Shown one piece after another: positions 52,675 through 53,917 of a stretch of DNA of 62,252 nucleotides. Under the pieces are notes generated by a model. The model searched no databases, was not told the DNA's origin, and saw only the letters and a list, made by a program, of their open reading frames with translations. This DNA comes from Erysipelotrichaceae bacterium 7770_A6. GTDB lineage: Bacteria > Bacillota_I > Bacilli_A > Erysipelotrichales > Erysipelotrichaceae. Every line of letters begins with the position of its first letter. The stretch's first letter is position 1. The position numbers and the translations under genes are program-made. The stretch covers positions 1 through 62,252 of the forward strand of contig QQXM01000005.1 in the NCBI GenBank assembly GCA_014610835.1, in the 5' to 3' direction.

Positions 52675-53865
52675 TTACAGTTTTTTTACAAATACTGTGC
52701 TACATACTTGTGAAAAGCCTTGTTTTATGAATACTGCAATATTTTTGTCATTTTCATCCATTTCAACTTTGATTTCTTCGATTCTATTCTTCTTTGCTTC
52801 TTCAATGAAAAGCTGAATTGCTTTTGTTCCAATCCCTTGATTCCTTTTTTCATATTCCACAATGATATGCATCCAGCAGGTTGTATCTGTCTCTTTCACA
52901 TATCCGATTTCTCCAGCATAGGAATGATTCTCATCAAAAATATAGCGATAGAAATAATTCTCATCCAAACCCCATTTCTGATAAAATGGTTCCCATTTTT
53001 TTCTATCAAATGGAAAAGGTCCCCCATATGCTTCATTGAATGACATCGTCTTTTCATCTTCAACAAGTTGCTTACGATACCATAAATCTTCAATGTGCGG
53101 CTGAAATAAGCAAACTTCATTTTTCAGTGTTAAGGCAAATTCTAATTCAATTTCAAATTTTGAATGGTTATGGTTAGCTTCATTTAAGCCTGTATTGTTA
53201 TATTCTTCTGCAAATGTATCTCCACATTCTAAAAATGTATATAGTTCAAATCCATAGAAATCTGCCACCGCCTCTACACCTGCAATTTCCATTTCCACTG
53301 CCAGGCAGCCTTCTTCTCTTCTTTTCTGTACTGCTCCTCTTGTTTCTCTTGTAAATGCATCTGTTGTCCAGACTCTTCCTTCAATGTATGGAATATGATT
53401 TTCTTTAAAAAACGAAGCCACTTTCTCGTGATTTTTGATTGCAATATAGTCTGAAGGTTTTTTAAAATGATATGACATGCCTTCATCACGATAGCTTTCT
53501 GTTGGAATAATATACTTTCCTTTTGTCTTCTCACTGATACTTCCACAAGATCCAGACATGATAAAACGATATGCACCACTTACCCACGCCGCTTCAATCA
53601 TACATTGTGCGCACATTGTACTTCCTAATTCTGTGAGATAGAATGCAATCTCTTTTCCCTTGTATACAAGAGACATAATATCTGTAGAACCATTACATCC
53701 ACTAATTTCAGATATTTTTTTACATGCATATGTTGTTAATATTTTCTGATAGATCTGATCTGAAAAGATAATGATGCATGTATCCACCATCTTTCCTTGT
53801 TTTCCATAAAAATCTTCTTCATTGATATATGTTTCTGTTGCAATATCAAACGAATCTGTAATCAT
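52675..53865 (-). CDS. Nucleoside phosphorylase-GNAT acetyltransferase fusion
   Basis: A 396-aa two-domain protein. Residues 25-250 look like the PNP/uridine phosphorylase fold: ELGSTMCAQCMIEAAW, SGSCGSISEK and the sugar-site motif AVEMEIAGVEAVADFYG (189-205). Residues 265-396 are a GNAT N-acetyltransferase, with the acetyl-CoA loop RNQGIGTKAIQLF at 341-353 and a late KQGFSQVCSTVFV. No stop or frameshift separates them, and codon use looks continuous. Neither substrate is visible. GGGAGG precedes the ATG. It sits between the peptide importer and a peptidase with its own terminator unit upstream. Confidence 0.82.
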   Translation of the reverse strand: MITDSFDIATETYINEEDFYGKQGKMVDTCIIIFSDQIYQKILTTYACKKISEISGCNGSTDIMSLVYKGKEIAFYLTELGSTMCAQCMIEAAWVSGAYRFIMSGSCGSISEKTKGKYIIPTESYRDEGMSYHFKKPSDYIAIKNHEKVASFFKENHIPYIEGRVWTTDAFTRETRGAVQKRREEGCLAVEMEIAGVEAVADFYGFELYTFLECGDTFAEEYNNTGLNEANHNHSKFEIELEFALTLKNEVCLFQPHIEDLWYRKQLVEDEKTMSFNEAYGGPFPFDRKKWEPFYQKWGLDENYFYRYIFDENHSYAGEIGYVKETDTTCWMHIIVEYEKRNQGIGTKAIQLFIEEAKKNRIEEIKVEMDENDKNIAVFIKQGFSQVCSTVFVKKL

Positions 53866-53883
53866 AAATTATTCCTCCCAAGA

Positions 53884-53917
53884 TAAAAAATACACATCCT
53901 TAACAAAGAATGTGTAT
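53884..53917 (-). terminator. Terminator of the PepC-like peptidase gene
   Basis: ATACACAT and ATGTGTAT (53890-53897 with 53910-53917) with a 12-nt loop, followed by TTTTTTAT on the minus strand. Confidence 0.82.

Follow-up and report, generated by a model that had tools for sequence, protein, structure and literature searches.

In the purine nucleoside phosphorylase (PNP) of Escherichia coli, the phosphate is held by Arg24, Arg43, Arg87, and Ser90, and the base is protonated by Asp204 together with Arg217 (PMC6193948). The PNP superfamily (PF01048) also supplies effector domains to multi-domain proteins of phage defence, as in Cap17 and Detocs (PMC10952713). Here we describe a gene from a gut bacterium of the Erysipelotrichaceae in which a PNP-like domain of the NP-I superfamily is followed, in one reading frame, by a GNAT acetyltransferase domain, and we compare its two halves with their stand-alone relatives and with characterized enzymes.

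A single reading frame encodes two joined proteins

The gene lies in a window of 62,252 nt, which is the whole stretch of DNA that was analysed and comes from one assembly. It is an open frame of 396 codons (53865..52675, minus strand) that starts with ATG, is preceded by a ribosome-binding site, and encodes a 396-residue product (Table 1). In Pfam profile searches, residues 31–208 match PF01048 with 62.9 bits (curated cut-off 25.1) and residues 284–384 match PF00583 with 34.8 bits (curated cut-off 20.7). An earlier, sequence-only reading of this DNA had proposed one uninterrupted frame running from a PNP-like into a GNAT domain and had suggested a profile search of each half; the frame and both matches bear the proposal out, and the ribose-site and acetyl-CoA motifs that it had pointed to lie where it placed them. 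The GC content is 34.0% in the PNP-like half, 33.3% in the GNAT half, and 35.5% in the window as a whole. That the 396-residue PNP-like/GNAT fusion is real and unusual as sequenced is well supported.

Table 1. Features of the fusion gene and its upstream region, in window coordinates
Feature	Position	Strand	Basis
PNP-like (NP-I superfamily) half, residues 1–247	53125..53865	-	PF01048; ends of relatives; NP-I fold
Ribose-site motif VEMEIAG, residues 190–196 (E. coli PNP 178–184)	53278..53298	-	Alignment
Asp216 (equivalent to catalytic Asp204 of hexameric PNP)	53218..53220	-	Alignment; role of Asp204 from PMC6193948
Junction, residues 248–250 (K-N-E), no real linker	53116..53124	-	Alignments
GNAT half, residues 251–396	52678..53115	-	PF00583; identity to stand-alone GNATs
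Acetyl-CoA loop RNQGIG (RxxGxG), residues 341–346	52828..52845	-	R, G, and G invariant in alignment
Ribosome-binding site GGGAGGA	53866..53880	-	Sequence directly; just upstream of ATG
Terminator-like hairpin with T run, in the gap between peptidase and fusion genes	53890..53917	-	12-pair stem; folding z-score -5.6

Relatives of residues 1–247 are encoded by separate genes for proteins of about 250 aa across the genus and the family, and the C termini of these stand-alone proteins align with residue 247 or lie a few residues beyond it. Relatives of residues 250–396 are likewise encoded by separate genes across the genus and the family, for proteins of about 150–160 aa, and the stand-alone GNATs start at the residue aligned with 250. 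Because these ends and starts meet at the junction, the alignments indicate that the single protein is made of two complete proteins with hardly any linker between them.

Two adjacent or overlapping genes could also have been joined by a sequencing or assembly error, or by a frameshift specific to this strain. An out-of-frame ATG is present in the junction, exactly at the position of the initiating Met of the stand-alone GNATs, and the gain or loss of one base just after it would split the frame into overlapping genes for a PNP-like protein of about 258 aa and a GNAT of 148 aa. The source assembly, moreover, consists of 233 contigs, and the PNP-like gene is broken in relatives, by a stop in G065 and by a frameshift in G165. 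However, the same split was possible in 300 of 300 codon-shuffled junctions and is thus not diagnostic of an error, no ribosome-binding site is visible before the out-of-frame ATG, and the other listed genes around the fusion look full length. The precursor arrangement, with the two genes side by side, was found in no relative among the loci fetched. We consider an artefact or a private frameshift unlikely, though to be reckoned with.

The PNP-like half has the NP-I fold and Firmicutes-wide relatives

An AlphaFold2 model of the PNP-like half (50 sequences) has pLDDT values mostly above 90 over residues 10–245. It adopts the NP-I fold: VIA-align superposes it on uridine and purine nucleoside phosphorylases with a Z score of 23 and an rmsd of 2.8–3.0 over 215–226 residues. 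The sequence-only reading had proposed structure prediction as a test for intact active sites. Among the best 80 of 564 relatives, those closest to this half are proteins of Clostridia, with identities of up to 58%, and a Mammaliicoccus protein is 55% identical. The half also groups with Clostridia and Mammaliicoccus proteins in the phylogenetic tree; this grouping, together with the closeness in sequence, suggests that it was acquired by lateral transfer. The PNP-like half belongs to a family that extends across the Firmicutes.

Some members of the family are interrupted. The PNP-like gene of G065, from the same genus, has a stop at codon 213 (locus L082, 4561-5199, minus strand), and that of G165, from the same family, is frameshifted (locus L062); these two cases raise the possibility that the gene may be decaying in some species. 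Another PNP-like protein (locus L057, 3107-4228, plus strand) carries about 110 extra C-terminal residues that look inorganic-pyrophosphatase-like by eye and have no Pfam match.

The phosphate site is lost throughout the PNP-like family

The residues of the fusion that are equivalent to Arg24, Arg43, Arg87, Ser90, and Asp204 of E. coli PNP are Y39, N58, M103, S106, and D216, respectively. Arginine occupies the equivalents of Arg24, Arg43, and Arg87 in 0 of the 50 PNP-like family members compared, and Met192, Glu193, Asp216, and the serine equivalent to Ser90 are present in all 50. The fusion also has no arginine within residues 226–235, the region of Arg217, where the alignment is less certain. 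In the two DeoD-like paralogues of this genome, Arg24 and Arg87 are retained in the same alignment, and an arginine lies three columns from the Arg43 position. In terms of curated equivalog profiles, the PNP-like half falls far below the NCBIfam cut-offs for deoD (43.7 vs 232.25 bits), AMP nucleosidase (35.4 vs 264 bits), and MTA/SAH nucleosidase (19.9 vs 169 bits).

These data bear on the reading that is nearest to an automatic annotation, namely that the protein is a genuine phosphorylase that serves nucleoside salvage and carries an acetyltransferase. Such an enzyme would be expected to have the fold and the ribose site that we observe; the missing phosphate-binding arginines, the deoD score, and the two DeoD-like paralogues already present in the genome nevertheless make it very improbable. 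As the arginines are missing throughout the family, the PNP-like half is probably not a phosphorylase, and a hydrolase or a nucleoside binder is likelier. The proposal in the sequence-only reading that this domain releases a nucleobase or sugar is thereby weakened with respect to phosphorolysis, and hydrolysis or binding remain. If this assignment is true, the half points to an uncharacterized Firmicutes family that resembles nucleoside phosphorylases and has lost the phosphate site, and the automatic annotation of its members as phosphorylases would be misleading.

The GNAT half retains the acetyl-CoA loop and has diverged

The GNAT half is 30–41% identical to complete stand-alone GNATs, and its acetyl-CoA loop is intact, with the RxxGxG residues present as R341, G344, and G346. 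The structure model of this half, built from two sequences only, is poor, with a pLDDT of 63; its nearest Foldseek matches in the PDB are GNATs, at rmsd values of 7–12. Compared with stand-alone rows that had been picked for their closeness to it, the fused GNAT departs at 14 of 39 near-invariant sites, whereas any other row departs at no more than 4. The 14 changes may mean that the fused GNAT belongs to another subfamily and not that it has changed fast, and the departure at these sites is compatible with a substrate that may have changed relative to the stand-alone relatives. Decay of the fused GNAT was considered and rejected, since the altered stretch resembles an ordinary GNAT pattern, which points to divergence.

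Other composite proteins with GNAT domains were seen in the same comparison. A 570-aa protein encoded in a single frame (locus L059, 2669-4378, minus strand) consists of two GNAT domains and a NUDIX domain, and in another (locus L061, 280-1320, minus strand) a methyladenine glycosylase (PF03352) is joined to a GNAT of the window type.

The fusion is found once in this order and recurs in the reverse order

The order PNP–GNAT was found nowhere else among the genomes of the genus (70), the family (272), and the order (315), nor in 392 genomes sampled from the phylum, in the best 80 of 564 relatives from a collection of 84,980 species, or in viral contigs. The papers searched describe no enzyme with this order either, so that the statement of the sequence-only reading that no such enzyme had been described holds for the genomes and literature covered. 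Elsewhere in the genus, other species have the two halves as separate genes, and genes for PNP-like proteins and window-type GNATs are not adjacent in the loci of relatives that were fetched. Our best guess from these comparisons is that the PNP–GNAT fusion is lineage-specific.

Fusions in the reverse order, with the GNAT preceding the PNP-like domain, occur in at least 8 genomes of Bacilli from several families, as proteins of 416–456 aa for which no description was found in the papers searched. One of these (L058, from G078) has about 443 aa, and a second type of GNAT precedes the PNP-like half in L075–L079 (G576, G555, G593, G559, and G592) and in L202 and L203 (G795 and G777). Their PNP halves belong to the same family and have the same active-site signature, but with glycine in place of the Ser90 equivalent; in L058, where the alignment of this stretch is poor, an arginine falls on the Arg24 position. 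A tree built by maximum likelihood from the PNP halves rejects a grouping of the window fusion with the reverse-order set (AU p = 7e-6) and does not reject a single origin of the reverse-order set (p = 0.41). The tree thus indicates that the window fusion arose separately from the reverse-order fusions, and fusion to a GNAT is recurrent for this PNP-like family.

The two halves may act on unrelated substrates with no shared chemistry, having been joined by chance among small accessory genes, so that the fusion is neutral or serves co-expression only. The order PNP–GNAT has been seen a single time; the GNAT type in the window joins many partners in the same order, including GNAT plus NUDIX (L059), GNAT (L060), and methyladenine glycosylase (L061); and reading frames fuse easily in AT-rich DNA. 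All three observations are consistent with this explanation, against which stand the separate origin of reverse-order fusions with this PNP-like family and their retention in several species. We regard a neutral fusion as a serious possibility, short of an even chance.

Alternatively, the PNP-like half could sense a nucleotide without any catalysis and thereby control the GNAT half. A ribose site that is kept next to a phosphate site that is lost would suit such a role, as would the existence of fusions in both orders. However, the catalytic aspartate is conserved in all members compared, beyond what binding alone demands, and most PNP-like members stand alone, without a GNAT. A sensor is decidedly improbable on this evidence.

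Genomic neighborhood

The gene is flanked by an oligopeptide importer and a peptidase C1-like gene. In same-genus relatives, wherever the gene that follows the peptidase was readable, it is a different one, RimO-like in most of 29 loci and glucokinase-like in two, with no clear assignment in the rest; the gene order at the fusion site differs from that of all relatives with a readable neighbour. The far arm of the terminator-like hairpin that follows the peptidase gene reaches into the region of the ribosome-binding site of the fusion gene. A functional link to the peptide importer or the peptidase was rejected; because a different gene follows the peptidase in all relatives with a readable locus and the hairpin intervenes, the neighbours say little about the function of the fusion.

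The surroundings of the stand-alone PNP-like genes were also surveyed, by comparing 88 same-strand genes directly beside 73 such genes with 96 control genes on the same strand but at a greater distance within those loci. GNAT (PF00583) was the commonest adjoining family, with 10 of 88 genes compared with 3 of 96 controls (Fisher's exact test, one-sided p = 0.028, two-sided p = 0.042, for a question posed after the fusions had been seen). The enrichment is modest, gives weak support to the function proposed below, and may reflect no more than accessory regions in which enzymes acting on small molecules abound; NUDIX proteins, methyltransferases, and kinases likewise occur among the neighbours. 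Directly downstream of one stand-alone PNP-like gene, a P-loop kinase-like domain is fused to a GNAT (locus L153, 4753-5829, plus strand). At another locus (L080, 233-4320, plus strand), genes for a double phosphotransferase, a NUDIX protein, a PNP-like protein, and two GNATs lie on one strand, an arrangement that resembles a small-molecule modification cluster.

A role in defence was rejected, as no PADLOC model matches the fusion at an E value of 0.01 and no defence context was seen.

A tentative function for the fusion

The reading that we prefer is that the protein is a lineage-specific bifunctional enzyme that processes or detoxifies nucleosides, to which we assign a probability of about 0.3; any function given to the fusion is accordingly tentative. 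The PNP-like half would act without using phosphate and would bind a nucleoside or nucleotide through its intact ribose site. The N-glycosidic bond would then be hydrolysed, with Asp216 as a putative general acid, or the ligand might merely be bound. With acetyl-CoA as donor, the GNAT half would acetylate an amine on that substrate, on its product, or on a related molecule. Acting together, the two halves would inactivate or recycle a nucleoside, or an analogue of one, that bears an amino group.

A broader version of this scheme extends to the whole family: phosphate-independent nucleosidases of Firmicutes would have GNATs as partners, would have been fused to them more than once and in both orders, and would disarm or recycle amino-nucleosides such as nucleoside antibiotics. 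We put this forward as speculative and rather unlikely in its full extent. The repeated fusion to GNATs does, however, provide a concrete hypothesis on the partner chemistry of the PNP-like family.

Comparison with known systems

The DeoD-type hexameric PNPs share with the fusion the fold, the VEME sequence of the ribose site, and the position of the catalytic aspartate. In contrast to these enzymes, to which its identity is about 20%, the fusion lacks Arg24, Arg43, and Arg87, has no arginine in the Arg217 region, and carries a GNAT at its C terminus. The AMP and MTA/SAH nucleosidases resemble our working model in that cleavage without phosphate is predicted for the fusion, and their profiles give weak matches; the scores, however, are far below the cut-offs. 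With RimI and the small-molecule GNATs (PF00583), the fusion shares the RxxGxG acetyl-CoA loop and the general GNAT profile, whereas its RimI score is only 25.5 bits (cut-off 86.4) and many family-specific sites are changed. The PNP effectors Cap17 and Detocs differ from the fusion in terms of defence context and PADLOC match, both of which it lacks. The reverse-order GNAT–PNP proteins of Bacilli combine the same two superfamilies and share the PNP-like family and its active-site signature with the fusion, from which they differ in domain order, in the types of GNAT, and, as the tree indicates, in their separate origin.
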